Shown here: one piece after another, positions 3,001 through 45,873 of the stretch
Layout of the letters: every line of letters starts with the position of its first letter
Numbering within the stretch: the first letter of the stretch is position 1
Assembly (NCBI GenBank): GCA_021927905.1
Contig: BLLK01000020.1
Coordinates: 372,001-436,000 of the forward strand
Origin: Chaetoceros tenuissimus
Lineage: Eukaryota > Bacillariophyta > Thalassiosirophyceae > Chaetocerotales > Chaetocerotaceae
Length of the DNA stretch: 64,000 nt
Direction of reading: 5' to 3'
Notes under the pieces: generated by a model
What the model was told of the DNA's origin: nothing
Databases searched by the model: none
Seen by the model: the letters and a program-made list of their open reading frames with translations, nothing else
Made by a program: the position numbers and the translations under genes

Positions 3001-3786
3001 CACAATGGAGTAGTGAAGACAAGCTATACAGGCTACACAGGTAGTGGGTCTGTGAGTATGGCTACTGGATTGGGTACATATTTGGAGTTTAAGAATGTCA
3101 ACTTTGGTAGTGGAGGATCATGCAAGATTGATTTTCGATACTCTTTGCCGAAGCAGAGTGACTCTGTGCGTACTTGTAAGGTTGAGATAGATGGTAATGA
3201 AGTTGGTATTGTGAACTTCAGCGAGTCCGGTCCAAGCTACAATGAGTATACAAGTGAGATGATGTTTATTGATTGTCCATCTGGTGTTGGCAATGTGCGT
3301 ATCACTTCGTTGTCATCAAGTGGTGGAGCGAATATTGATCATATGTTGGTAGCATCTGTCGGAGCATCACCTTTGGATATTCCACTGACTGAGGTGTATG
3401 AGGCTGAGGCAGATGGTAATATCTTCTTTGATACAGCATTTTCGGATGTGTTTGCAGGGTATGGTGGTAGTGGGTTTGTAGGTTTATCGAATCAGTATTC
3501 TTGGTTGGAGTTTACTGGTGTAGACTTCAAAAATGGAGGATCATGCAAGCTTGAGGTTCGATACACATTGAAGCAGAGTAAATCATCACCTCGTCCATGT
3601 GGAGTATCAATCAATGGTGAGGAAGTAGGTGTGTTGAGGTTTGATGGTACAGGTCCAGTGTGGGGGGCATGGGGTACGGATATGTTGGTATTTGATTGTC
3701 CAGCTGGAGGAGGTAATGTGAGAGTGACAGCATTGTCAACGTTTAGAGGACCAAACATCGATAGTATGAAGTTATCCAGCGTTTAA
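1..3786 (+). CDS. Secreted protein with tandem CBM6/CBM35-like modules (5' end outside window)
   Basis: This is the 3' part of a gene that starts before the window. Exon 1 runs to 383. A 94-bp intron (384-477, GTAAGT...TTAG, phase 0) follows, and exon 2 is 478-3786. The protein is a string of beta-sandwich modules that open with 'YEAED' or 'REAED', contain 'GYTGSG' and 'SCxxxFRY', and end in 'GxPNxDxxxxS', which resembles carbohydrate-binding families 6/35. One module is in exon 1; six are in exon 2, at about 721-1110, 1147-1540, 1573-1970, 2536-2925, 2962-3355 and 3388-3786. Ser/Pro/Thr linkers separate the blocks, at about 478-720 and 1980-2530. The last three modules are a near-exact copy of the preceding three. 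No catalytic domain is visible, so a glycan-binding wall or extracellular role is inferred. It converges on the next gene with a gap of 57 bp. Confidence 0.82.
652..3786 (+). repeat. Tandem ~1.3 kb direct duplication (period 1815 bp) inside the CBM gene
   Basis: Bases from about 652 to 1970 reappear at about 2467-3786 with a constant offset of 1815 bp (605 codons), so the frame is kept. By eye the first ~1.1 kb has only a handful of differences, for example GAA/GGA at 1252/3067 and ATC/GTG near 1351/3166. The final ~200 bp has drifted more, for example around 1760-1780 versus 3575-3595 and at 1890 versus 3705. Near identity at third-codon positions points to recent duplication or gene conversion. 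Confidence 0.9.
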
Positions 3787-32454: not shown

Positions 32455-32840
32455 TTTGATTTTACAAAAAAAGGCTGTCAAGTAGAGAAAAGATTTGTCT
32501 TGCCTTGCTTAAATTCACTTTAGGGTTTAGAATAGATGTTTCTATCTAGAGAGAGTAGTTCATTTAATTATAAAGATACGTAATGTACAAAAAAGATGAG
32601 ATGAAATCAACTTCAATGACGTTCACACGTTTTTGACACCTATTTCTCTGTCTTTCCCCTTCTTTTCTCTTTTGAAGTATCTTTTCATCTTTTCGATCTT
32701 CGATCTTTCATTTTTTTGTTTCCTTTTTCCTTTTCGTGTCGAAAGTCGACAGTTCTAACCGGGAAGTATTATAGTACAAGTACTCATAATACCCTTCAGT
32801 CCATAAAGCTCTATTGAATCTTTACCTACTCATATTTAGC
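32455..32840. promoter_or_regulatory. Promoter region of LRR/ankyrin paralogue 1
   Basis: This 386-bp spacer lies between the PPR gene (minus) and LRR copy 1 (plus). It contains CAATGACGTT near 32624 and TCTCTTTTGAAGTATCTTTT at 32666-32685, about 155 bp before the ATG. The same two blocks recur upstream of the other family members. Confidence 0.6.
32666..32685 (+). promoter_or_regulatory. Family promoter element, copy 1
   Basis: The 20-bp sequence TCTCTTTTGAAGTATCTTTT is identical at four of the five family members and has one change at the fifth. It sits about 155 bp before the start of copy 1, is followed by repeated GATCTTT, and is preceded by a pyrimidine-rich run. A transcription-factor or core-promoter site is the natural reading. 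Confidence 0.6.
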
Positions 32841-33635
32841 ATGAGAGTGCAGACAGAAGAATGGCGGCGGTTCATTCCCGGAGTACGAATGTACAAAGGA
32901 AAGATGACTCTCTTTTACAATGGAGAGAAACTGTGGGATGTTGAGAATGGTAATCCTGTTATCTATGATGAAAAGGAGAGAAACTCGTGGGAAGTCATCA
33001 TCGTTCTACCAGGTGTAGAAGTGATTCATGAGCGGACTTTTGATAGTTGTTTTGAAATTAAGACTGTCATCATGAGTGATTCTGTACGAAGAATTGAAAA
33101 TGAAGCTTTCTATAATTGCTACAGTCTCGAGTTTGTAAAGCTCTCTAGAAATCTCGAATTCATTGGAGAATTTGCATTCGGTTATTGTTCTTCTTTGACT
33201 TCAATATTCATTCCGCCATCCTGTCGAGAGATTGGTGATTACGCATTTGCTAAATGTCATAAGTTGATCATTTTTCAAGTACCTCACCAAACTCAACTTG
33301 GACAACATGTGATTGGTGATACTGAATTGATTGAAGCATCTTCCTTTCCTACCGATGAAGATGGCTTTTATGACAATAATGAGGAAGTGAATGAATGGAT
33401 TAAAAATCACCATGAAAACAATCAATACTCTCTACATCGAGCTTGTGTATCATACAACCCGTTAGATGAAGTGATTTTCGATATTATTAAAAGACAAGGA
33501 CTAAAAGCATTCAAGAAGTCAGATAGAATTGGAGTCACTGCATCGCAATATCTTTCAGAGAATCCATTTGCAGAAATAAAGGAACAAAATATTATCAGAC
33601 GTTACATTCTTGACATGATGGGTGAAGTGATCTAA
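32841..33635 (+). CDS. LRR/ankyrin-like family protein, paralogue 1
   Basis: The 264-residue protein starts at the family-conserved MRVQTEEWRRFIPGVRMY. Residues ~1-55 form a conserved N-terminal module. About 55-165 are BspA/LRR_5-type leucine-rich repeats with 'VETVIM', 'SVRRIENEAFYNC' and 'LEFIGEFAFGYC' units. The last ~80 residues ('SLHRACVSYNPLDEVIFDI', 'GVTASQYLSENP') resemble one or two degenerate ankyrin units. There is no signal peptide in this reading, so it is probably intracellular. A protein-binding role is inferred. It is intronless, as are all copies. Confidence 0.85.
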   Translation: MRVQTEEWRRFIPGVRMYKGKMTLFYNGEKLWDVENGNPVIYDEKERNSWEVIIVLPGVEVIHERTFDSCFEIKTVIMSDSVRRIENEAFYNCYSLEFVKLSRNLEFIGEFAFGYCSSLTSIFIPPSCREIGDYAFAKCHKLIIFQVPHQTQLGQHVIGDTELIEASSFPTDEDGFYDNNEEVNEWIKNHHENNQYSLHRACVSYNPLDEVIFDIIKRQGLKAFKKSDRIGVTASQYLSENPFAEIKEQNIIRRYILDMMGEVI

Positions 33636-33954
33636 ATGATGGTTGTAACAACTTGGATAGTTTGAACTACAAATAAAATTCTATTTATTATTTCCAGCTG
33701 CTTGGATTTCAATCCTAGATTCTATTTGCGTAATCATAAAGATATATTCGCATTTTAATGATTGATCCAATGACGTTTGCGACACCTATTCCTCTCTTCT
33801 TTCCTTTCCTCTCTCTTTTGAAGTATCTTTTCAGATTTATGGATATTGGATCTTTCCATCTTTCTCATGTCAAATGAGAATACAAGTATTACTCATACTG
33901 GCACTACCCTTCAGTCTCAATCTCTTCATTGGATCTATTGAATATATTGAAGTG
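33636..33954. promoter_or_regulatory. Promoter region of LRR/ankyrin paralogue 2
   Basis: These 319 bp hold CCAATGACGTTTGCGACACC near 33766 and the family 20-mer at 33812-33831, followed by GGATCTTTCCATC. The order matches copy 1, with a shorter distance to the ATG (about 123 bp). Confidence 0.6.
33812..33831 (+). promoter_or_regulatory. Family promoter element, copy 2
   Basis: TCTCTTTTGAAGTATCTTTT is identical to the copy-1 element and lies about 123 bp before the family-conserved ATG at 33955. Confidence 0.6.
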
Positions 33955-34764
33955 ATGAGGGTTCAGACGGAAGAATGGCGGAGATTCATCCCGGGAGTGA
34001 GAATGTACAAAGGAAAGAAGACTTTCTTTTACAACGGAGAGAAACTTTATGATGAAGAGAATGAGGAGCCTCTCATCTACGATTGGAAAGAGAGAGATTC
34101 TTGGCAGGTCATCATTGTACTTCCCGGAGTGGAAGTGATTTCTAAACTTGCTATCTGGGACTGTAATAATGTAGAGACTGTCATCATGACCGATTCTGTA
34201 CGAAGAATTGAAGATGGAGCTTTCTGGCGTTGCTGGAGTCTCGAAAATGTTCGACTTTCAATAAACCTTGAGCACATTGGAGATTGTACATTCAGTGCAT
34301 GTTACTCTCTGACTTCAATCTTCATTCCGCCATCCTGTAGAAAGATTGGCGAATGCGCATTTCATGGTTGTGAAAAGCTGATCATCTTACAAATACCTCA
34401 ACACACTGAACTTGGTGAATATGTTATTGAACGTACAGCATTGATGAAAGCATCTCCATTTACAACTGATAGCTTGGGAGGTTATGAAGTCAATGATGCA
34501 ATACATCATGAGGAAGTGAATGACTGGATTAAAAACCGGCATGCGGATGATGAATTCTCTTTGCATCGAGCTTGTTCCTCATACAACCCATTGGATGAAG
34601 TCATTTTCGATATAGTGAAAAGACAAGGACTAAAAGCCTTCAAGAAACAAGATAGTGTTGGAGTTACTGCATCACGATATTTATCAGAAAATCCATATAC
34701 TGAAATAAAAGAGCAAAATATGATCAAACGTTATATTCTTGATATGATGGGTGGAGCGATCTAA
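33955..34764 (+). CDS. LRR/ankyrin-like family protein, paralogue 2
   Basis: The start at 33955 is the family-conserved MRVQTEEWRRF and gives 269 residues. An in-frame ATG at 33874 would add 27 mostly hydrophobic residues (MRIQVLLILALPFSLNLF...). Because other copies lack an ATG there, I treat it as 5' UTR, although it could make a signal-anchored form. The LRR_5 core has 'RRIEDGAFWRC', 'LEHIGDCTFSAC' and 'CRKIGECAFHGC'. The C-terminal ankyrin-like part has 'SLHRACSSYNPLDEVIFDIV'. Role unknown, probably protein binding. Confidence 0.85.
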   Translation: MRVQTEEWRRFIPGVRMYKGKKTFFYNGEKLYDEENEEPLIYDWKERDSWQVIIVLPGVEVISKLAIWDCNNVETVIMTDSVRRIEDGAFWRCWSLENVRLSINLEHIGDCTFSACYSLTSIFIPPSCRKIGECAFHGCEKLIILQIPQHTELGEYVIERTALMKASPFTTDSLGGYEVNDAIHHEEVNDWIKNRHADDEFSLHRACSSYNPLDEVIFDIVKRQGLKAFKKQDSVGVTASRYLSENPYTEIKEQNMIKRYILDMMGGAI

Positions 34765-35086
34765 CTTCGGTTCTATCAACTATCTGAACTAAAAACAAAT
34801 TTATTCGTACATTTCATATGTCAAAGCTATAATCTATGTACATTTCCATGTTAAAGATGGGTCCGTCACTATTGAAATTAGTAAAATCAATCCAATGACG
34901 CCCGTTTTTCATGACAATTCTTACTTTCTCTTCTCCTTTTTCTCTCTTTTGAAGTATCTTTTCTGCGATCTCTCAATTTTTTCATTTAGACCATTTAGAC
35001 TACTTTTTAGTTGATGCCATTGCAATCAATACAGAGTTCCAAAAGATATCTACTAAGCCATTACATGAGCATTCCTAATATATACA
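34765..35086. promoter_or_regulatory. Promoter region of LRR/ankyrin paralogue 3
   Basis: These 322 bp include CCAATGACGCCCG near 34893 and the family 20-mer at 34943-34962, about 124 bp before the ATG. The promoter resembles those of the other copies much more closely than the coding sequence does. Confidence 0.6.
34943..34962 (+). promoter_or_regulatory. Family promoter element, copy 3
   Basis: TCTCTTTTGAAGTATCTTTT is identical to copies 1 and 2, although the gene it precedes is a strongly diverged family member. Confidence 0.6.
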
Positions 35087-35941
35087 ATGAGATTTGCACG
35101 TGTTGATGGTCTAATGACTCTCTTTTACGACGGGTCGGCAGACCAAGTCTACAATCAGTTACTTGCAAGTCAACTCGATCACGCATTTATGTACTACCAA
35201 GATTACGAAAATGATGAGGCATTTCTGGAGGAGTGTGTATTCAAATATCCTATTGAACGCATGACAGAGGCAGTTCTAAAATACTGGAGAAACCTTTTCA
35301 AAATAGAACAGCTAATCATCTTGGAAGGAGTGACGGAAATTCCAGAAAACACATTTTTTGGATGTGTCAACCTCAAGCGAGTCATCTTTGCCAATACAGT
35401 CAGAAGAATTGAAAAATGTGCTTTTATGTACTGTTATAGGCTTGCTTGTATAAAACTTTCTACTGCATTGGAATACATTGGAGTTTGTGCATTTGATTCT
35501 TGTGATATTTATAGCGTATATATTCCTCCAAGTTGTAGAGAAATCTGCGACCACTCATTTGCATGGAATTTTGACTTGGAAATCTTTCATGTTCCGCAAC
35601 AGACTCTGCTTGGTGAATGTATTATGATTGGTTCGTCATTGCTAAGTCATTCATCTTTTGAAGAATATGAGATAGAATATGAGAGTGAAGAAACTATCAA
35701 CCCTTGGATCAAGAATATCAATGACGAAGAGGAGTATGCTCTACATCGAGCTTGCTTGTCGTATCATCCATTGAAAGAAATCATTTTTGCCATCGTCAAC
35801 GAGAAAGGACTTGGATGTTTTACTGAGAAGAATGATGTTGGTATCAGCCCTTCCGAGTACTTGAAAGAAAATCCGTATACAGAGCTGACTGAGAAGGAAA
35901 TTATTCATGATTACATCATGAGCAAAATGTGTCCAGTTTAG
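35087..35941 (+). CDS. Diverged LRR/ankyrin-like family protein, paralogue 3
   Basis: The 284-residue protein lacks the MRVQTEEW block and starts MRFARVDGLMTLFYDG, aligning with the 'KTLFYNGEKL' part of its relatives. It keeps the LRR_5 units ('RRIEKCAFMYC', 'LEYIGVCAFDSC', 'CREICDHSFAW') and the C-terminal module ('ALHRACLSYHPLKEIIFAIV', 'GISPSEYLKENPYTEL'). A longer acidic insert lies at about 20-70. Sequence outside these anchors differs widely from the other four, so it is an older paralogue, although its promoter element is unchanged. Confidence 0.82.
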   Translation: MRFARVDGLMTLFYDGSADQVYNQLLASQLDHAFMYYQDYENDEAFLEECVFKYPIERMTEAVLKYWRNLFKIEQLIILEGVTEIPENTFFGCVNLKRVIFANTVRRIEKCAFMYCYRLACIKLSTALEYIGVCAFDSCDIYSVYIPPSCREICDHSFAWNFDLEIFHVPQQTLLGECIMIGSSLLSHSSFEEYEIEYESEETINPWIKNINDEEEYALHRACLSYHPLKEIIFAIVNEKGLGCFTEKNDVGISPSEYLKENPYTELTEKEIIHDYIMSKMCPV

Positions 35942-36416
35942 TATAGAAATCTTTGGATTGTTGTATTGTTGTCTCTTCCCTCAAAGTATCTATTAGTGCA
36001 ATAGATGCATGATAAACTAGAACCAAAGAAATCTCACATGGATATTATTCCGTCGTCAGTGTGCTGCCTATCACTTCCTATCTTCTTCCCAATCTCCCAA
36101 TCCAACAAATCCGAAAGAAGATCTTATCTACTATGAACAGCTGTTTCGGATCAGCGAGATGTTCGATGAGCTTCTAGTGGGAACAGCTTTAGATGACACA
36201 TCTCTCTCTTCACTTTATTCGCAACATCAACAATAGAAGGTATTCATCACCTCGTTATAATTCTGATTGATTGACGACTCGTAAAAAGAGAGATAGAGAG
36301 ACTATTCTGAAGTCATACATATTTAGAAGAATCGACTGGAAAGACTCAACAAGACACATTACACAAGAAAGCATTCCAAGAAAGACACATCACTCTCGAA
36401 CAGCCATCACTTGAAA
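35942..36416. other. Intergenic region before the dioxygenase-like gene
   Basis: This 475-bp stretch contains the 3' end of LRR copy 3 and the promoter of the cupin gene. The family 20-mer is absent. Nothing else was recognised. Confidence 0.35.
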
Positions 36417-38036
36417 ATGAAAATTCCGAAAGTGTCAATCATTCAATATGTGTTGACAGTCTCTACTGCCAATGTTTTTACTAATAGTAACAGTTATTCT
36501 GGTCAAGTATCAGCATTCAGTTTCACTCCTTCCTTGTTCAGGTTCAATCTAAAGGAAGTTGGCAGCAATCAGGGTTGGATGCAAACTGCACTAAAGATGG
36601 CAAATCTGGATCCAGAATTCTATCGACGCCGCAGAGAAACAAAGAATATTAATGATTGTGTACAGCTAGACGATGATGACAATCAAGAAGCCTTTAACGC
36701 ACTTGGGGATCTCGCAATCGAAGGTCAAGGTGCTGTGGGTTTCAAATTTGTAATGGATGACAATGCCAAAGAAGTTCGATTTCGCTTTGATCCTGCTAAA
36801 GGTAATGATATTGACAGTGGTGAATCAAGTCCTCATCCAATCTTCCACACAATTAGCAATGAAAAGGGGTGGGTCATAACGGATCTTGTCACATGCGAAG
36901 AGTTAGCTGGGCCAGTTTATGATGATCGTGGCCTACCCTTGCTCAATCCTGGTAGAAACCAAACATTTTGGATGTCGTTTGATAAAGAAAATTTATCTAT
37001 CAAGGGTGGAAGTGGTTACATGCTTACTGCCCTGCAATTGGTAGAAAAGAGATTTGAAGAACCGCAAGACGTATACAACCAAACTGTGCATGAAAAGAAA
37101 TTGAAGGAGTATCAAAACAAGTATGGGAAGATATCAAAATATTCCATGGACCCATCTTCCATCAAGCAGGATGAGGACGGATGCAAAATTGTTGAGTTGA
37201 TAACATCAAAGTATCCAATTACTCAGGATCTCCCGCCCATTGTAAAGGACCATCAAGATATCACATTGGAGGATCTTGATACAAGAACTGCCATCTCTAT
37301 TAAAGAATTATCACCTGAGTGTCAGAGGCTTTACGAGAATGTAGCTGGAGCGAGCATAAAAATCAGCCCGCCTGACTTTCCAGACTTTGCGCAAGCAATT
37401 GACTACTCCATCAACTTTGGGTTTTGTAAAGAAACTCTAGCTAGGAAAGCACAGGGTGAATTTGAAGGGGGTAAAAGCGACTATGATGCCAACCAGGCAT
37501 ACCTTCGTGTTACTTTGGGATCTAATTTAGGCGATAGTCCTGGTATCCCTTATGTTATGGAAATTTGGCCCGCTGGATGCTATAGTCCTATTCATGATCA
37601 TAGCCAAGCAAATGCCATCATCAAGGTTCTTCATGGATCACTTACAACTCGCTGGTTTGAAAGTCTTGACCGTGTACAACAACAGAAAGAATTATTAACA
37701 TCTACTTGTAACCCAGTACCATATAAGCAAGCAGTGATATCCGAAGGGGATGTTACATGGCTTGACGATAGGCAGTTCCAAACACATCAACTGTTTAATC
37801 ATAACGTTGATGGAACGGCATGTATTACGATTCAATGTTACATGTACAATAATCGGGATGTATCTCATTATGAGAACTTTGATTACATCGGTGGCACTGA
37901 TAATGAGATTATCGGATTTGTGCCAAATTCAGATTGGGATTATGAGTGTTTCAAACAGCTACTGAAAGAAGAATTTTCGAAATATAAGGAAAATGCTGCA
38001 CCTGTACCTGATTTAAAACCCAGAGGCGGCACATAG
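36417..38036 (+). CDS. Cysteine-dioxygenase-like cupin protein with long N-terminal extension
   Basis: The ATG at 36417 gives 539 residues. The C-terminal ~210 residues look like a cysteine dioxygenase type I domain: 'WPAGCYSPIHDHSQANAIIKVL' in outline supplies the two iron-binding His (393 and 395) and the 'SPIHDH' signature. A later 'HQLFNH' supplies candidates for the third His. Known members oxidise cysteine or small thiols to sulfinates using Fe(II). The ~330-residue N-terminal part is not recognised and is far longer than animal enzymes (about 200 residues). A hydrophobic segment near residues 5-20 could be a weak targeting signal. Substrate is uncertain. Confidence 0.72.
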   Translation: MKIPKVSIIQYVLTVSTANVFTNSNSYSGQVSAFSFTPSLFRFNLKEVGSNQGWMQTALKMANLDPEFYRRRRETKNINDCVQLDDDDNQEAFNALGDLAIEGQGAVGFKFVMDDNAKEVRFRFDPAKGNDIDSGESSPHPIFHTISNEKGWVITDLVTCEELAGPVYDDRGLPLLNPGRNQTFWMSFDKENLSIKGGSGYMLTALQLVEKRFEEPQDVYNQTVHEKKLKEYQNKYGKISKYSMDPSSIKQDEDGCKIVELITSKYPITQDLPPIVKDHQDITLEDLDTRTAISIKELSPECQRLYENVAGASIKISPPDFPDFAQAIDYSINFGFCKETLARKAQGEFEGGKSDYDANQAYLRVTLGSNLGDSPGIPYVMEIWPAGCYSPIHDHSQANAIIKVLHGSLTTRWFESLDRVQQQKELLTSTCNPVPYKQAVISEGDVTWLDDRQFQTHQLFNHNVDGTACITIQCYMYNNRDVSHYENFDYIGGTDNEIIGFVPNSDWDYECFKQLLKEEFSKYKENAAPVPDLKPRGGT

Positions 38037-38492
38037 GTGGTACATAGGTAGACGATGACGATTACCCAGATATTGATGACATGGAAGGAGGATTCTCACC
38101 TCGTGATCAGAAACGAGAAAATAAAATTTAATTGCAAAAGGTGAGAAGAAGTGTTCTAAAGCTTTGGTAAGAGAGCTAATATTATTATTCTGAAAAATGA
38201 AAAATCAAGTGTGAAGTCATGGAAACGAAGGAATTTAGAGAGGAGGAAAAGGTTCAGTCGCAAGGACAGAAGAACATATAAAAATGATTTCATCAACTTC
38301 TTTTTCTACTGTATGAATTGAAAGACCAATTCACGAGTTTCCTAGATTTTCCAATGACAAACATCATTCTCATTGTAGGCTATTTATGGAAAGAGCCTAA
38401 TTTCGAAGGGATATCTTTTTCTTTCCAAGTTATCTAAAAAAGCAAATGAATGATATAAATTTGAATATGTAACCATATGAGGAATTGAAAGC
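38037..38492. other. Intergenic region, no feature recognised
   Basis: These 456 bp separate two plus-strand genes. GGCGGCACATAGGTGGTACATAGGTAG at the start is a short direct repeat around the upstream stop codon. No RNA gene, conserved promoter element or coding frame of substance was seen. Confidence 0.35.
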
Positions 38493-39776
38493 ATGAGTAA
38501 TCTAATGTACTCCACGTTATCAAGATCTTCTGTACTCATAACATCACGAGCAAAGAGACCTTTCTCCTCATTTCTTCTTTCAACAAACAAATCATCGCCG
38601 TCTCAAGCTTTGTTTCCACATGTAGAAGATTCAATGCATAACAGAAAAAGTAAGCTACAATATCCAATCAGGTCATTGAGTACGGATGAAAGCGCGAACG
38701 ATCTACTTAAAAATCTAGATTTCAAATGGACCAAAATCAATCCTGAACCCGATTCAAAATATGGTCTACCCTGCGAAAGATCCTCGCATGGTCTCTCTAT
38801 ACTCAAGAATGGCTCACTTTTGATTCTACATGGTGGAGAACAAATTGCTAGAACTCCATTAGACAATTCGCAAATGACTTGGGCTGCACAACAAACAAAA
38901 GATGGGACATGGCATTGGAAATTGATTTCGACACTTGAATCTATTGGTTTGAATCCCCCCCCACGTGTAGCGCATGCTCAAGCTGTATACAAAGATTCCG
39001 TGTATTTATTTGGCGGTAGACAAGGTGTTGCAATGGAAGAAAGTGCACTTTCTGATTTATGGCGATTGGATTGTACCAATGATACTTTTACATGGCACAA
39101 AATTCAACCAGATGGTGATGATGTCCCTGAAGCGAGATCATTTCATCAAATGATTAGTGTCGGTTCATCATTGTATATATTTGGTGGTTGCGGTGAAAAT
39201 GGTAGACTTGCAGATCTTCATAGATACGATATTGAAGCAAATACGTGGCATACGCTACCATCGTCGAGTCTTTTAGAGGGTAGAGGAGGTGCTAATTTGA
39301 TGACATTTGATTCTAGCAAGTATATAGGAGTCACTGCAGGCTTTTGTGGTCGAGAAGCCAATGATGGACATTTGTTTGATGTTGCAAAAGGTTCATGGCA
39401 AAATATTGGCATCAATGACAGACTGAATGGATTGAGACCTAGAAGCGTTTGCATAAATGCAAGTTTTCCATCCATGGACATGTCCCTTATATTCGGAGGA
39501 GAAGTAGATCCAAGCGAAAAAGGACATGAGGGTGCAGGAGGTTTTGAAAATGATTTAGTCATTTTAGATGAAAATACTGCAACGTATCAAGCTACGTTGG
39601 TGGCTCCAGCTTCTTCTTCAGAGTCGTGGCCGGAAACGAGAGGATGGTCGGATGGAGATTCTATAGAAAACGGAGGCAGGTCAGCGCAGTTGTATGTTTA
39701 TGGTGGTTTAGCAGGAGATGACAATTCTCCTAAAAGATTGAATGACTTGTGGTGCTTGGATGTGAGAAAAAGTTGA
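38493..39776 (+). CDS. Kelch-repeat beta-propeller protein, probably organellar
   Basis: The 427-residue protein starts at the ATG at 38493. The first ~70 residues are Ser/Arg/Lys-rich with few acids ('SRSSVLITSRAKRPFSSFLL'), suggesting a mitochondrial or plastid transit peptide. Kelch blades follow, with the double-glycine strands 'LLILHGGEQ', 'VYLFGGRQG', 'LYIFGGCGENG', 'SLIFGGEV' and 'LYVYGGLAGDD' and the partner motif 'LWRLDxxxxxxTWHKI'. Six or so blades would form a closed propeller. Such proteins bind other proteins, and in plants some steer thiocyanate formation. No enzyme role can be assigned. Confidence 0.78.
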   Translation: MSNLMYSTLSRSSVLITSRAKRPFSSFLLSTNKSSPSQALFPHVEDSMHNRKSKLQYPIRSLSTDESANDLLKNLDFKWTKINPEPDSKYGLPCERSSHGLSILKNGSLLILHGGEQIARTPLDNSQMTWAAQQTKDGTWHWKLISTLESIGLNPPPRVAHAQAVYKDSVYLFGGRQGVAMEESALSDLWRLDCTNDTFTWHKIQPDGDDVPEARSFHQMISVGSSLYIFGGCGENGRLADLHRYDIEANTWHTLPSSSLLEGRGGANLMTFDSSKYIGVTAGFCGREANDGHLFDVAKGSWQNIGINDRLNGLRPRSVCINASFPSMDMSLIFGGEVDPSEKGHEGAGGFENDLVILDENTATYQATLVAPASSSESWPETRGWSDGDSIENGGRSAQLYVYGGLAGDDNSPKRLNDLWCLDVRKS

Positions 39777-40156
39777 ACAAAATGACGATTGTAAAGAAAT
39801 AAAGTGGGGACTTAAAAATAACTCGAAAGGGATCAGAAATCTAAGTTCATTTGGTTTCACACATTCAACATAGTCTTGTTTTTTCCTATTGAAAAATCCT
39901 ACTATGGGCCAAAAAAATTGATTGGATTTGCGTCATTGGTAACGTGATATTTTGGTTTGTCACTCAAATACAATGACTTTCAAGTTTTGTGACACCTATT
40001 TCTCTCCCCTCCTCTTCCTTCTCTCTTTTGGAGTATCTTTTTTCGATGTGATGGATGATAGATCGTTCAACTTTCTTTTAACGTGATTATTATTAGATAG
40101 GAGAACTATTGTATTACTATCTTTCAATCTCTATCTCTTTATTGAATTTACTTACG
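39777..40156. promoter_or_regulatory. Promoter region of LRR/ankyrin paralogue 4
   Basis: This 380-bp spacer carries GCGTCATTGG near 39929, the reverse orientation of the CCAATGACG element seen upstream of copies 1-3. It also has ACACCTATTTCTCTCC near 39993 and the family 20-mer at 40022-40041. Confidence 0.6.
40022..40041 (+). promoter_or_regulatory. Family promoter element, copy 4
   Basis: TCTCTTTTGGAGTATCTTTT differs from the other four copies by one base (GGAG for GAAG) and lies about 115 bp before the ATG at 40157. Confidence 0.6.
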
Positions 40157-40951
40157 ATGAGGGTTCAGACAGAAGAATGGCGGCGGTTCATTCCCGGAGT
40201 GCGAATGTACAAAGGCAAGAAAACCTGTTTTTACAACGGAGAGAAACTATGGGATGAAGAGAATCGAGAGAATCTTATCTATGATGAAGAAGAGCTTCAC
40301 TCGTGGGAAGTCATTATCGTATTGCCAGGAGTTGAAGTGATTCCTGTTGGAACTTTCAGTGGCTGTGAAAACCTCAAAACAGTCATCATGTCAGATTCTG
40401 TCAGAAGAATTGAAAATTGTGCTTTCGAAAAGTGCAAGAGTCTCGCATTTGTCAAACTCTCGAGACATGTTGAATACATTAGAGGGTGGGCATTCCATTT
40501 CTGTGAATCGCTGACTTCCATCTTTATTCCGCCATCCTGTCGAGAGATTGGTGATAAAGCCTTTCAAGGTTGTAAAAAGTTGATCATCTTACATGTTCCT
40601 CAACACACTCAACTTGGTAAAAATGTGATTGCTGATACAGCATTGATTAAAGCATCTTTTTTCCAAACTGATGATGATGGCGAGTATATCACCCGTGAGG
40701 AAGTGAATGACTGGATTAAATCCCACCATGATGACAATCAATTCTCTCTACACCGAGCTTGTTCCACTTTTAATCCATTAGATGAAGTGATTTTTGATAT
40801 AGTCAAAAGACAAGGCTTGAAAGCATTTAATAAAACGGATAGCATTGGAGTTACACCATCGCAGTATCTCTCAAACAATTCATATAGTGAAATCAAAGAG
40901 CAAAAGATTATAAAACGTTATATTCTTCACATGATGGGTGAAATTATCTAA
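40157..40951 (+). CDS. LRR/ankyrin-like family protein, paralogue 4
   Basis: The 264-residue protein begins MRVQTEEWRRFIPGVRMYKG, as in copies 1, 2 and 5. The LRR_5 core has 'RRIENCAFEKC', 'VEYIRGWAFHFC' and 'CREIGDKAFQGC'. The C-terminal module has 'SLHRACSTFNPLDEVIFDIV', 'GVTPSQYLSNNSYSEI' and 'YILHMMGEII'. It matches copy 1 in length exactly. Upstream in-frame sequence to 40109 is hydrophobic but is not conserved among copies, so I keep the family start. Confidence 0.85.
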   Translation: MRVQTEEWRRFIPGVRMYKGKKTCFYNGEKLWDEENRENLIYDEEELHSWEVIIVLPGVEVIPVGTFSGCENLKTVIMSDSVRRIENCAFEKCKSLAFVKLSRHVEYIRGWAFHFCESLTSIFIPPSCREIGDKAFQGCKKLIILHVPQHTQLGKNVIADTALIKASFFQTDDDGEYITREEVNDWIKSHHDDNQFSLHRACSTFNPLDEVIFDIVKRQGLKAFNKTDSIGVTPSQYLSNNSYSEIKEQKIIKRYILHMMGEII

Positions 40952-41614
40952 CCTCGTTCTATGCATCAATAGCAGTTGTAATATTAGTGCACATTTTAAA
41001 TAAAATCATTTTTATAAATACTATGACTTTTACATCATCATTTCATCTATGAATATACGTACTCCTTGATTTCTCCTATAAAAAACAAAAGAAATGAAAC
41101 AGCGATCTTTTGAATCATTTCTTTTCTCGAGCCGTTTTTGAGCCTTCTTTTAAAAAGCCATATTCTCTACACTTTCATGCAAATACAGATATTCAATAAA
41201 ATTATTCTGGAATAAATGAAGTAGTTTGTTCCGCATTGGATGGGTGTAGCATAGGTATTTGATGTCAAATATAAAATTTCGTAACAAGCTAGAGAGTTGA
41301 CTTTTTGTAAGTTCGACAGCTTCTAGAACATATAAATTTACTATCTAACTTACTCATTGATTTTCTTTCTACTGTTCAGTGTTGAAGAGTGTAATAATAC
41401 CAATGCTTTGCCAATGTTGAGACACGACAGACGTAAGGGGCAAAACAGGACAGACGTAGGACAGACGAAGAAAAGAAGAACTCTTTTCTTTTAGTTATGG
41501 TACACATCTTGATCCATGACCACTACACTAGCACTTATCATCATCGCATCTTTTTATATCATCTAGTCTTTTGTAACCCTATCAATAGATATCGAATATC
41601 GAAGGTTAATAGAT
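40952..41614. other. Intergenic region with short ACAGACG repeats
   Basis: These 663 bp precede the sorting-receptor gene. Near 41424-41470 the unit ACAGACG(T/A)A occurs three times at irregular spacing (GACAGACGTAAGG, GACAGACGTAGG, GACAGACGAAG). No coding frame or RNA gene was recognised. Confidence 0.4.
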
Positions 41615-43377
41615 ATGTTCAAGTCCGTGGCGATGAAAGGCCTTGTAGCTACAGCACTTTATGTATCTTCGGCTGCAGCTAGTAAGATGTCCTCGTCGGT
41701 CAAGGTTTATGTAAGTTGAAAGAACATTACGAGGGGCTGATTAGACAAGTGAAAGTATGATGAGTTATTTCGTACTAAATGCAGCAGAAGAGGATTATTA
41801 ATGGCTTTCACATTTTTCTACAATATGTGCTACCATGGCAGGCATACTTCATTCTTGTTTCAATGTGATTAAATTCGAACTGGAAATGAAATCTCAATCA
41901 TTAAAATACTTACGTTCATCCGAATTTCGCTAACTTTTCTTTTCTACTTTTTAATGACTAAAACATACCAATGCCTCATTGTTCAACATACCAATCTATT
42001 TCGATATCGTGCTCCAATTCAATGTAGCTACCAAAAGAACTTTCGAGGCCAGCAGGATATGATCATCGTGAAGCACTCTTTGGTATCCCACCCTACGGAG
42101 AATCCATTCTAGAAAACGTCATTTACGCCAACCACGACATGTGTTACCCAATAGAAAAAAGCGGTTGGAAAGCACCATTCATTCTACTTGTCGATCGAGG
42201 CGGATGTACGTTCGTGCAGAAAGTACGTAATGCCCAACATGCAGGTGCAACAGCCGTCATTATTGCCGATAATAGATGCCAATGCAAACATGAAAAGATA
42301 TGTAGACATGAATCGAATCAAGTCTGCGAAAGGCAAGAACCCATCATGGCCGATGATGAATCTGGGTATGATATCACCATTCCGTCAGTGTTGATGTTCA
42401 AACAGGATGCAGATCCTATCAAGGCAGCTTTGGAGGATTATAAATCTGTACGAATGGAGTTGACTTGGTCTCTTCCGAATCCAGATTCACATGTCGAATG
42501 GTATTTGTGGACTTCTCCTACAGATTATATGAGTAGTGAGTTTAATTATGAGTTTGGTGTTGCTGTCGAGGCTTTTGGTGGTCAAGCGAGTTTTACTCCA
42601 AACATGTATATTTATGATGGTATTACTGAAGGCAAATGTCGTAATGCAGAGGGCAAGTCAGAATGTTATACTTTGTGTACCAATGAAGGAAGATATTGTG
42701 CGGCGGATCCAGATCTTGACTTGGATTATGGAATCAGTGGTGCGGATGTTGTCGCGGAATCTCTTCGTAGATTGTGTATTTGGGAATTGTATGGAAAGGA
42801 TGACGGAGTTGGCATGAAATATTGGAACTATGTCAAGGAGTTCATCAATATTTGTGATACCTCGGAATTGTTCATGAAGGAAGATTGTGTCAAGAGAGTT
42901 ATGGCAAAGGATACTGTACAAATTGACTATGATGCAGTAGATCAATGTGCATACAACCACGGAGGACTTGAGAGGCCAGAGGAAAATGATTTGCTTCAAA
43001 AGCAGTTGGATGAGAAAGAGGCCAATGAAATTGCTATCATGCCTGCAGTTTACGTCAATGGAGTAGCTATTCGTGGAGAACTACAATTTGCAACTGTATT
43101 CAAAGCAATATGTGCTGGGTATGCACCTGGAACTGAACCAAGAATCTGTACAAAGTGTAGCAATTGTCATGAAGAAAAGGCGTGTGTTGTACATGGAGGC
43201 AAGTGCCCTGGTGATGGAGCAACCGTTGGGTCATCTACCTTTGTTGCAAGCATGGCAAGTTTAGTCCTCGTCTTTTCTGGAATTGGAGCAAGTTATTACA
43301 TTAGGCGACAGAGAATAATGAAGGAACAAGTCTCTCCTAAAGATTCCTATTACTATGAGCTTGTTGACTTCAGTTAA
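41615..43377 (+). CDS. Vacuolar-sorting-receptor-like protein (PA domain, type I membrane)
   Basis: Exon 1 (41615-41710) encodes a signal peptide (MFKSVAMKGLVATALYVSSAAA). A 317-bp intron (41711-42027, GTAAGT...TGTAG, phase 0) follows, and exon 2 is 42028-43377, giving 481 residues. 'LPKELSRPAGYDHREALFG' and 'LVDRGGCTFVQKVRNAQHAGA' mark the protease-associated domain. A Cys-rich region with 'YVNGVAIRGEL' follows, as in plant vacuolar sorting receptors and related proteins. A transmembrane helix near 440-460 ('FVASMASLVLVFSGIGASYY') precedes a short cytosolic tail ending YYYELVDFS, where Tyr motifs could direct sorting. Cargo binding in the Golgi or endosome is inferred. The intron is the longest in the window. 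Confidence 0.85.
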
Positions 43378-43460
43378 ATCTCTTGTAAAATTCGAATCAT
43401 ACCAAAACGGGAGAATACATTGAAAACAACACCTGATTCAAATGCTCACTATTATCTTTA

Positions 43461-43846
43461 CTAAGCCTGAGTTGAGTCAAATTTCTTGAACAGTTTCATT
43501 ATTTCTGGCCAAGATCTATTTCTTATTTCCAATGAAATGAAATCCTTTCTCCGGATGTGATTGAGACAATGAAGTTCAGTATCAGAGAGAAGACAAATAG
43601 GGACAATGTGAACATTCTCTCTGCAAAATAAAGAAATGGCTCTTTCCACAATGATAAAGTCGTTGGGTAGGTTGTAGACAAAAGAAGAAGCACTCTTTCT
43701 CTTACTATGTATGAACCCAAGACAGAAATTAAATGGTTGACAAAGCAACAAGCGATAGTGATTTCAACTAAGATACCAATTCTAGGAGGGTGTTTGACTG
43801 CTTGTCCAAAAGATTCAGGAACCGTGCAATTCAAATCTGTTTTCAA
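43461..43846 (-). pseudogene. Possible minus-strand gene remnant
   Basis: Two overlapping minus-strand frames (to 43751 and 43846) contain protein-like stretches, including 'NLPNDFIIVERAISLFC' and 'HIRRKDFISLEIRNRSWPEI'. Neither has a good start or a recognisable family. It overlaps the plus-strand fragment next to it. It may be a decayed gene end, or chance. Confidence 0.2.
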
Positions 43847-43885
43847 ATATCACCAGAAAGAATTACTTTTCCCAATTTGAAAGGT

Positions 43886-44410
43886 ATGGCGACAAGCGTG
43901 AAGGAAATCAATAAAGCGTATGGTGTCAAGAAAATCGATTTGAATGTACAGTTGGAAACAAGGCTTGTGGATTATAAACCAATGATTGCGGGTATGCCTC
44001 CCATCAATCCTTTGAGAAAGTTTTTGCATTTGAATACGCAACGATATTTACATGTTTATTTTATGAGAAGGTTTCATGGGCATTTTTATGACAGGTGGAT
44101 GTTTTGCAAGGATTGCAACTAATTGACGTGTGAGTTTTATACTTTTGGAAGGATATTCTATAGGAGGTTCGAAAATGAAATCAGGTCGACACCAACAAGT
44201 GCGCGTGGTGGAGGAGCATACATTATATCAAAGGGAATAGGAGCATTCTATGTCCAAGAGAAACATGACATGAATGAGGAAGTAACGATTGAATTGGGTG
44301 TATTGTATTGTAATTCAAAAGAAATTGTTGGTTCGCTCAAAAGTGATAATATTCCTTTTATCATTTGGTTTCTTATCATAGTTTCTTATATTATTACTGA
44401 TAATACGTAA
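43886..44410 (+). pseudogene. Small gene interrupted by one in-frame TAA
   Basis: From the ATG at 43886 a frame with varied protein-like composition ('DYKPMIAGMPPINPLRKFL', 'YFMRRFHGHFYDRWMF') runs to TAA at 44120-44122. It then continues in the same frame to 44410 with 'FYTFGRIFYRRFENEIR' and 'GAYIISKGIGAFYVQ'. A single-base change would give one ~174-residue protein. No family is recognised. It is either a 78-residue gene with a chance downstream frame, or a freshly inactivated gene. Confidence 0.3.
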
Positions 44411-44699
44411 ATAAGTATGGTATAAGAATAATCAGATTTGCGTCATTGGAAAGGTGACAACCGTAGTTCACCACTCGACAACAATAACAATACGAGTAGG
44501 TACGTCGGTTTGTTTGGAGTCTCTTCCTCTCTTCTCCTCTTCCTTTTCTCTTTTGAAGTATCTTTTTTGGTGATGGATCTTTCGATCTTTCATTTTACAT
44601 TTTACTGTACTTGTATTGCATCAATACCCTACTCGTAGATGTATTGTACACTAAATATTTTGTCTTTTCTCTATTGAATCTATCAATTTAATTTCATGT
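44411..44699. promoter_or_regulatory. Promoter region of LRR/ankyrin paralogue 5
   Basis: This spacer contains GCGTCATTGGAAAGGTGACA near 44440 (same orientation as in copy 4), the family 20-mer at 44547-44566, and GATGGATCTTTCGATCTTTC directly after it. It is closest to the copy-4 and copy-1 promoters. Confidence 0.6.
44547..44566 (+). promoter_or_regulatory. Family promoter element, copy 5
   Basis: TCTCTTTTGAAGTATCTTTT is identical to copies 1-3 and lies about 133 bp before the ATG at 44700. Confidence 0.6.
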
Positions 44700-45497
44700 A
44701 TGAGGGTTCAGACGGAGGAATGGCGGCGGTTCATACCGGGAGTGAGAATGTATAAAGGGAAGAAGACTCTCTTTTATAATGGAGAGACACTGTATGATGA
44801 TGAGAATGGAGAATTTCTTGTTTATGATGAGCAAGAGAGATTTTCGTGGCAAGTCATCATCATATTACCTGGAGTTGAAGTGATTCCTGATTCTACCTTT
44901 TGTAGCTGTTGTTGTAATGTCGAGACAGTCATCATGAGTGACACTGTACGAAGAGTTGAAGATGGAGCTTTCTCTCAATGCTGGAGTCTCGAATATGTTA
45001 GACTTTCAAGAAATCTGGAATACATTGGAGAATCCGCATTCTTTGAATGTAGATCTCTGACGTCAATCTTCATTCCGCCATCCTGTAGGGAAATTGGTAA
45101 ATGGGCATTTAACGATTGTGAAATGTTGATCATATTGAGTGTCCCTCGACACACTCAACTCGGACAAGATGTGATTGGTGGCACTTCATTGATTAAAGCT
45201 TCTCCATTTGAAACAAATGATTATGGGGAATACGAAGATTCAAACGGTGTCAATGAATGGATTAAATGCCACCATGATGACAATCAATTTTCTCTACACC
45301 GAGCATGCGCATCTTACAACCCTTTAGATGAAGTCATTTTCAATATCATCAAAAGTCAAGGGTTGAAAGCTTTCAAGAAGCAAGATAGCGTTGGAGTTAC
45401 TGTGTTGCAATATCTTTCAGAGAATCCATATACTGAAATCAAAGAGCAAAACATCATCAAACGTTATATTCTTGATATGATAGGAGAAATCATTTAA
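44700..45497 (+). CDS. LRR/ankyrin-like family protein, paralogue 5
   Basis: The 265-residue protein begins MRVQTEEWRRFIPGVRMYKG. It has one extra residue against copies 1 and 4, in a Cys-rich stretch (CSCCCNVETVIM). The LRR_5 units are 'RRVEDGAFSQC', 'LEYIGESAFFEC' and 'CREIGKWAFNDC'. The C-terminal module has 'SLHRACASYNPLDEVIFNII' and 'YILDMIGEII'. Structure and inferred protein-binding role are as in the other copies. Confidence 0.85.
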   Translation: MRVQTEEWRRFIPGVRMYKGKKTLFYNGETLYDDENGEFLVYDEQERFSWQVIIILPGVEVIPDSTFCSCCCNVETVIMSDTVRRVEDGAFSQCWSLEYVRLSRNLEYIGESAFFECRSLTSIFIPPSCREIGKWAFNDCEMLIILSVPRHTQLGQDVIGGTSLIKASPFETNDYGEYEDSNGVNEWIKCHHDDNQFSLHRACASYNPLDEVIFNIIKSQGLKAFKKQDSVGVTVLQYLSENPYTEIKEQNIIKRYILDMIGEII

Positions 45498-45873
45498 AAC
45501 TCATTCCATGAAAGCAAAGAATCATCTATGGATAGTGTAGGTATGATATAACATATAATATTATAGCATAGCAGTTATCTCAGCTCTTCTCATAGCTCTT
45601 TATTTATCCAATAATAAACACAAGAATAAACGAAAAATAATGCAGCTTGCGTCATTGGAAGAGGAACCTTTTTCTTTCCTTCTCTTTTCTATCTTTTGAA
45701 TCAATCAATGGATACAAACATGCAAAAGATTTTTTGTGACATGAAAAAGAAGCAACCCATCTTCTAATGCAATTGCTATTTCAATTTCACTACAGCAGTT
45801 CATAGATTACTTTTCAAATAGAAATCAATAGCTAGCTACAACTTTACTTATTCAACACTAAGCGATAAACATC
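45498..45873. promoter_or_regulatory. RRF upstream region with a partial family promoter
   Basis: Between LRR copy 5 and the RRF gene, the sequence GCGTCATTGGAAGAGG near 45649 and TTCTCTTTTCTATCTTTTGAA near 45681 (one base longer than my 20-base limit allows me to quote exactly) resemble the two family promoter blocks in degenerate form. It may be a remnant of a sixth family promoter now serving another gene. Confidence 0.4.

Follow-up and report, generated by a model that had tools for sequence, protein, structure and literature searches.

A 20-bp upstream element, probably under purifying selection, marks one promoter type of the BspA-type LRR gene family in the diatom Chaetoceros tenuissimus

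Introduction

Short sequences that distinguish the promoters of some members of a gene family from those of others have been described in several systems, and here we compare them with a 20-bp element (the 20-mer) found ahead of leucine-rich repeat (LRR) genes in a window of 64,000 nucleotides of the diatom Chaetoceros tenuissimus (positions 372001-436000 of contig C14; assembly G000: 41,027,912 bases, 68 contigs). In the protocadherin arrays, a conserved sequence element (CSE) with a CGCT box (PMC7811963) precedes the start codons and binds CTCF, with promoter choice described. The var genes of Plasmodium falciparum form a large variable family grouped by upstream sequence into upsA, upsB, and upsC, a grouping linked to chromosomal place (PMC11793742). 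In oomycetes, the initiator plus flanking promoter region (INR+FPR) has been estimated to occur in 13% of P. infestans promoters, near the transcription start site, and was reported absent from the diatom Thalassiosira pseudonana.

As reported in PMC8613185, an LRR_5 expansion in C. tenuissimus (OG0000) comprises 385 paralogs, 376 of them with an LRR_5 domain. The word "promoter" is absent from the main text of that paper, and a word look-up in a later C. tenuissimus transcriptome paper (PMC12305248) returned none of the words leucine, LRR, ankyrin, or BspA. No paper on the promoters of this family was found in a search that left most subscription journals outside. The sequence features reported here suggest that the 20-mer is probably a cis-regulatory element maintained by purifying selection, and that it is confined to a single promoter type of the BspA-type LRR family. 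We call this promoter type T1; it is defined by the 20-mer and comprises 11 genes and one orphan copy.

Results

Five copies of the 20-mer TCTCTTTTGAAGTATCTTTT lie on the plus strand of the window (four exact, one with a single change; Table 1), where 0.02 would be expected by chance, and five copies were reached in none of 100 shuffles of the window. The original prediction of an invariant element ahead of all five LRR genes, at a variable distance of about 115-155 bp from the ATG, thus holds: measured from the end of the 20-mer, the distances for genes 1 to 5 are 155, 123, 124, 115, and 133 bp (gene 2 being counted from its MRVQ ATG at 33955). None of the three non-LRR open reading frames (ORFs) of at least 150 aa between the LRR genes carries a copy (36417, with weak similarity to CDO; 38493, kelch; 42139, VSR/PA), so the 20-mer tracks the LRR genes and not the region.

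The 20-mer is not spread over the genome without a link to gene starts. At no more than one mismatch, it has nine sites in 41 Mb, all on C14, compared with none for the reversed control, and eight of these begin 135-175 bp before same-strand family genes, which supports the predicted "selected regulatory site." Four of the nine form a minus-strand cluster at 330-342 kb, in which three precede family genes (329243, 332658, and 341595). The exact 16-mer core, TTTTGAAGTATCTTTT, occurs eight times in the genome, always at T1 promoters, once near 494.9 kb, and altered versions of the 20-mer precede the family genes 494809-, 497088-, and 498215-. With up to four mismatches, the element was found in 10 of 165 family upstream regions, all on C14, too few for an element of the whole LRR family. 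Among the 70 listed looser near-matches outside T1 (one site appearing twice), none lies within 3 kb of the 175 tabulated family genes. Since copies with at most one change are confined to T1 promoters and the orphan, and the exact core to T1 promoters, a general core promoter or a genome-wide repeat was rejected as an explanation. A heat shock element was also considered and rejected. Its consensus consists of inverted nGAAn units (GAAnnTTC), and the 20-mer, GAAGTATC, contains no GAAnnTTC. The region of the minus-strand cluster and the orphan also holds an exact 300-bp direct repeat (L002:1630-1929 and 3124-3423, 1494 bp apart), with a 175-aa ORF present twice at the same spacing.

All LRR_5 family counts are lower bounds from one genome. 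The 165 upstream regions were taken from the 175 tabulated family genes (10 left out), and weaker T1 relatives beyond these regions may be missed. The subfamily-A search contributed 145 of its 148 matches, three second pieces of split genes being dropped; the gene 3 search gave 141 matches, of which 30 of the first 31 supplied upstream regions and 43 more entered the distance check alone. Promoter counts were restricted to regions of at least 100 bp with a clear ATG. Counts of CAATGAC elements and pyrimidine runs covered 148 non-T1 and 11 T1 regions (the latter unfiltered), and ATG density was counted in 157 regions. The control set consisted of 29 of the 39 window ORFs, picked by length only, with LRR and overlapping ORFs excluded.

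Conservation is concentrated in the 20-mer itself. In an ungapped comparison of eight genes anchored on it (28 pairs, without the orphan copy), identity was 0.97 inside the element, 0.53-0.66 in the preceding 30 bp, and 0.22-0.38 in all other 10-bp bins from -180 to +199, including about 0.3 in the next 10 downstream bases. The tree from four-fold sites of seven subfamily-A genes has a length of 2.14, which corresponds to 42.9 changes expected in 20 bp, compared with two seen; when the two frame-broken genes, which were read in their post-break frame here and in the coding tree, are left out, the five remaining genes give 28.3 expected and one seen. These expectations assume neutral four-fold sites and Poisson changes, so that P-values are rough. 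As predicted, the 20-mer is therefore better conserved than the coding region. The proportion of synonymous differences (pS) is about 0.4-0.6 along the whole coding sequence and 0.54 in the first 22 codons, where that of nonsynonymous differences (pN) is 0.02 (ten genes).

The 20-mer is part of a larger arrangement. In all nine copies, the 25 bp before it are 92-100% pyrimidine with varying sequence; in the last 22 bases of this tract, we counted 190 transitions and 14 transversions, compared with 971 and 2222 in the flanks. Runs of 20 pyrimidines occur in 10 of 11 T1 promoters, compared with 5 of 148 non-T1 family promoters and 2 of 29 control ORFs. A CAATGAC-type element lies 44-52 bp before the 20-mer in six of nine copies; when both orientations and the whole promoter are considered, it is present in 9 of 11 T1 promoters. 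It is common across the LRR family in its CGTCATTG-type form: GTCATTG/CAATGAC was found in 64 of the 148 non-T1 promoters of the family, compared with 5 of the 29 control ORFs (reversed string, 3 of 148 and 0 of 29), and 61 of its 81 occurrences in non-T1 promoters are 120-240 bp before the ATG. CCAATGACG is not limited to LRR genes, as its fifth copy in the window (45650-45658, minus strand) stands before the gene for a ribosome recycling factor (45874). Downstream of the 20-mer there is a weaker GATGGATCTTTC-like block at variable spacing.

The distribution of ATG triplets bears on where transcription begins. Across 157 family leaders, the 60 nt next to the start codon contain 5.4-8.6 ATGs per kb; the density rises to 13-14 per kb at a distance of 60-100 nt and to about 17-24 per kb farther upstream. 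At least one ATG stands between the 20-mer and the start codon in 10 of 11 T1 promoters. A script counted 29 such ATGs in about 1.6 kb, including one that probably is the genuine start codon of the frame-broken gene M1. Because these ATGs are retained, transcription would start downstream of the 20-mer; the pattern suggests a start within about 100 bp of the ATG, with the 20-mer being promoter DNA rather than leader RNA.

Gene 3 differs from the other window genes in its relatives rather than in its promoter. Its best matches are on C13, C59, and other contigs, mostly over the full length (the best about 50% identical), while subfamily-A genes match it far lower, mostly over residues 60-281. 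Several of these relatives have another promoter block, GCTTACTTACAAAACTATT. With relatives elsewhere and the local 20-mer upstream, gene 3 represents a subfamily-B body joined to a T1 promoter. The original prediction had described its coding sequence as widely diverged, which is correct as to distance (45% identity to gene 1, compared with 69, 72, and 71% for genes 2, 4, and 5); the gene is not simply diverged, however, and belongs to another subfamily. Conversely, the subfamily-A genes 331989- and 495894- on C14 carry another segment, T2 (L001:5064-5219; L005, C14:495977-496048), which has replaced or displaced the T1 element and of which there are two copies only, so that a T2-type promoter spread over the genome was rejected. 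In 331989-, T2 is nearer the ATG, and a T1-like site with five mismatches 304 bp upstream is a probable relic of the T1 element, on the strength of a 45-bp alignment at 80% and not of the mismatch count. Together, promoters and coding bodies seem to have been exchanged. The star-like coding tree, on which the T1 label is unclustered, neither supports nor counts against such exchange.

Table 1. Positions in the window of the 20-mer copies, the adjoining promoter features, and the LRR genes
Feature	Position	Strand	Remark
20-mer copy 1	32666..32685	+	exact
20-mer copy 2	33812..33831	+	exact
20-mer copy 3	34943..34962	+	exact; ahead of other-subfamily gene (gene 3)
20-mer copy 4	40022..40041	+	one change: G for A at position 10
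20-mer copy 5	44547..44566	+	exact
Pyrimidine tract next to copy 1	32641..32665	+	92% C/T
Pyrimidine tract next to copy 2	33787..33811	+	96% C/T
Pyrimidine tract next to copy 3	34918..34942	+	96% C/T
Pyrimidine tract next to copy 4	39997..40021	+	96% C/T
Pyrimidine tract next to copy 5	44522..44546	+	100% C/T
CAATGACG	32614..32621	+	CRE-half/CCAAT-like element common to other family promoters
CCAATGACG	33767..33775	+	
CCAATGACG	34892..34900	+	
CAATGACT	39971..39978	+	
CCAATGACG	39931..39939	-	opposite strand, upstream of gene 4
CCAATGACG	44441..44449	-	opposite strand, upstream of gene 5
LRR_5 gene 1	32841..33635	+	264 aa, subfamily A
LRR_5 gene 2	33955..34764	+	subfamily A, MRVQ start
LRR_5 gene 3	35087..35941	+	284 aa, subfamily B; nearest relatives mostly on C13, C59
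LRR_5 gene 4	40157..40951	+	264 aa, subfamily A
LRR_5 gene 5	44700..45497	+	265 aa, subfamily A

The five genes were originally described as LRR/ankyrin genes, and only the first half of that label was confirmed. All five have a Pfam LRR_5 (BspA-type) match (64-82 bits, cut-off 27.7), whereas a search of their C-terminal parts against the ankyrin models of Pfam gave no match at E<=10 in any of the five. For gene 1, the predicted model (mean predicted local distance difference test score, 81.9) has helices between residues 180 and 261 and best matches solved bacterial LRR proteins (6mlx, Z 16.2, 161 residues, root mean square deviation 3.8). No ankyrin structure was among the 50 matches listed in either structure search; those of the search that gave 6mlx mostly span residues 8-192, and the C-terminal part may yet be an ankyrin domain. 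In the subfamily-A repeats (window 32841-45497, ten genes), pN is 0.51 at 28 "xx" positions, compared with 0.12 at 67 framework positions, a comparison that is partly circular as the "xx" positions were chosen from the repeat pattern; pS is 0.60 and 0.47, respectively. The high pN is compatible with a variable recognition surface. In gene 2, an in-frame upstream ATG at 33874 adds 27 mostly hydrophobic residues before MRVQ (33874-33954), and none of the ORFs of genes 1, 3, 4, and 5 is extended in this way.

Conserved blocks specific to a subfamily are not limited to T1. Clustering of the 165 promoters in 420-bp upstream stretches, with any overlapping 3' coding end of the preceding tandem gene masked, sorted them at E<1e-6 into 23 groups of at least two, leaving 54 singletons. 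When the best 20-mer common to each group was sought without guidance, 10 of the 11 T1 regions yielded the 20-mer described above (mean 1.67 mismatches, shuffled about 6.6), a recovery that is not independent as the group itself is defined by the 20-mer; a C27 group yielded TTGTCCTTTGCTTCCCTTTC (mean 1.89), and two of the other groups of at least five gave weaker results (5.09 and 3.50). The C27 block has 12 genome sites at up to two mismatches (control 0), of which eight are 169-226 bp before same-strand tabulated family genes, three are near opposite-strand family genes, and one has no tabulated gene nearby. The block CTTACTTACAAAACTATT of C13, C59, and other contigs, with 50 sites compared with 13 for the control and 19 of the 50 within 400 bp before tabulated family genes, is less exclusive. 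A tie between T1 and C27 through GRAGTATCTT was dropped, as it concerns few C27 genes and is too thin to claim.

Two further observations concern other LRR groups. The palindrome GCCATGTTTACAAACATGGC, or shortened forms of it, is found in the promoters of another LRR group (L108, C16:3139031-; L117, C16:3325915+; L113, between C16:3215146- and 3215758+; L120; L020; and L141), some of them between divergent genes. In C43 relatives, GGTATC...GATACC stands at the aligned palindrome place, as if the arms had changed together. Also on C43, the upstream sequences of L063 and L066 (C43:149120-149599 and 153874-154353) are identical over the compared block, as are those of C43 150832 and 155585, which suggests a recent segmental duplication within the C43 array.

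Discussion

Taken as a regulatory unit, the T1 module would consist of a CAATGAC-type element, a pyrimidine tract of about 25 bp, and the 20-mer, which in the window genes is 115-155 bp away from the ATG. Most probably, a sequence-specific factor would recognise the 20-mer and the adjoining tract jointly, at a site 5' of the presumed transcription start, and thereby give the T1 paralogs a shared expression programme. Any family member that moves into the array could then come under T1 control, as gene 3 of the other subfamily may have done.

The original prediction had left room for repeated promoter conversion, and gene conversion or recent duplication could indeed keep promoters alike if the 20-mer merely lay within the copied tract. 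The T1 copies are all on one contig, within 170 kb; the orphan matches copy M2 over 139 bp at 91%, which reflects a genuine recent duplication; copies W2 and M2 have 20 exact bp in common to the left of the 20-mer; and in many pairs, gapped alignments reach about 40 bp beyond it at 75-92% identity. We nevertheless consider copying unlikely. Conversion would be expected to copy tracts longer than the element, with edges specific to each pair. Among 36 pairs (the orphan included), exact matches continue past the 20-mer for a median of 0 bp to its left and 0.5 bp to its right (largest, 20 and 12 bp), and ungapped identity is at background just downstream. Furthermore, the flanks of M1 and M3 are 69% identical over 286 columns, yet their 20-mers differ at one base; the coding sequence adjoining the promoters is as divergent at synonymous sites near the start codon as elsewhere; and copying does not explain a tract that keeps its composition without its sequence. 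The data thus appear to fit purifying selection better than copying, though short tracts of conversion across the wider module may have contributed.

The place of the 20-mer relative to transcription allows two other explanations. It could be a core promoter that spans the transcription start, in the manner of an extended initiator preceded by a pyrimidine patch and akin to the oomycete INR+FPR of 16 nt. Its fixed orientation, the adjoining pyrimidine tract, and the failure to find TATA[AT]A in 9 of 11 T1 promoters would agree with this, but ATGs follow the 20-mer in nearly all T1 promoters while the family is depleted of ATGs only within some 60-100 nt of the start, and an element whose close copies are restricted to T1 promoters is no general core element; we regard this explanation as improbable too. 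Much less credible is an intron in the 5' leader whose 3' splice site would be formed by the tract and an invariant AG. A tract conserved in composition only, followed by AG in 12 of 12 copies, would suit an acceptor, and the upstream TGAC could serve as a branch site. However, splice acceptors usually read CAG or TAG, whereas all 12 copies have AAG or GAG at this place; the eight bases past the AG are nearly as conserved as those before it, which a splice site does not need; and there is no ATG depletion just downstream of the AG.

Several observations weigh against a selected element private to T1 promoters, or at least against its simplest form. The orphan copy (341225-) has no family gene behind it: 14-18 bp past the 20-mer, the DNA becomes repeated (C14:340750-341225; L002:4250-4725) and, over about 280 bp, is 98-99% identical to four other places in the genome (28 matches with itself counted, the further ones being weaker), and a repeated element seems to have replaced or displaced the gene of this copy. 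In this assembly, the frames of the genes behind copies 330184- and 342521- meet stops after 14 and 31 codons. At the frame-broken and orphan copies, selection need not act now; alternatively, the breaks may be recent or stem from errors in the assembly. Near 494-498 kb, the three altered versions have an indel, with or without a change, or three changes; the CAATGAC element is not at its usual place in three of nine copies; and looser patterns, T1 sites included, are about twice as frequent as the reversed control (66 and 32 for the 20-mer at three mismatches, 35 and 13 for the core at one). On the star-like coding tree, the T1 label takes five changes, a number as low in 157 of 500 shuffles, and five mismatches, as in the putative relic upstream of 331989-, occur by chance in about 2.4 of 165 regions. 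Finally, gapped local alignments extend in many pairs from about -50 to +45 (75-92%, 40-95 bp around the element), so the edges of the 20-mer are less sharp than the ungapped profile implies, and the conserved module is wider, with the 20-mer as its best-kept part.

If the 20-mer is indeed a selected element, a short sequence that stays fixed amid drifting coding and noncoding DNA offers a handle on how and when a very large LRR repertoire is switched on. As other subfamilies have blocks of their own, it becomes possible to ask whether the promoter class of a gene sets its expression class in a receptor-like family of a protist.

Compared with the described systems, T1 resembles in layout the protocadherin CSE, which is likewise a conserved element at a similar distance before the start codons of an array (here 115-155 bp, in five of five window genes). 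The 20-mer, however, has no CGCT, whereas the CSE has a CGCT box and binds CTCF. From the oomycete INR+FPR it differs in being private to one gene subset, and it lacks a CATT core. With the var genes, the LRR family has in common that it splits by upstream sequence, with conserved blocks in several groups; the difference is that here a 20-bp block stands out in mostly unalignable flanks. By analogy, one might speculate, at rather long odds, that the LRR genes are a variable-receptor-like repertoire in expression classes, each with its own promoter code of about 20 bp (T1 on C14, TTGTCCTTTGCTTCCCTTTC on C27, CTTACTTACAAAACTATT on C13, C59, and others) atop the common CGTCATTG-type element, in which genes could change class by promoter swap (gene 3 and the two T2 genes) and expression might be class-wise or exclusive, as in the var ups groups and the protocadherin CSE.

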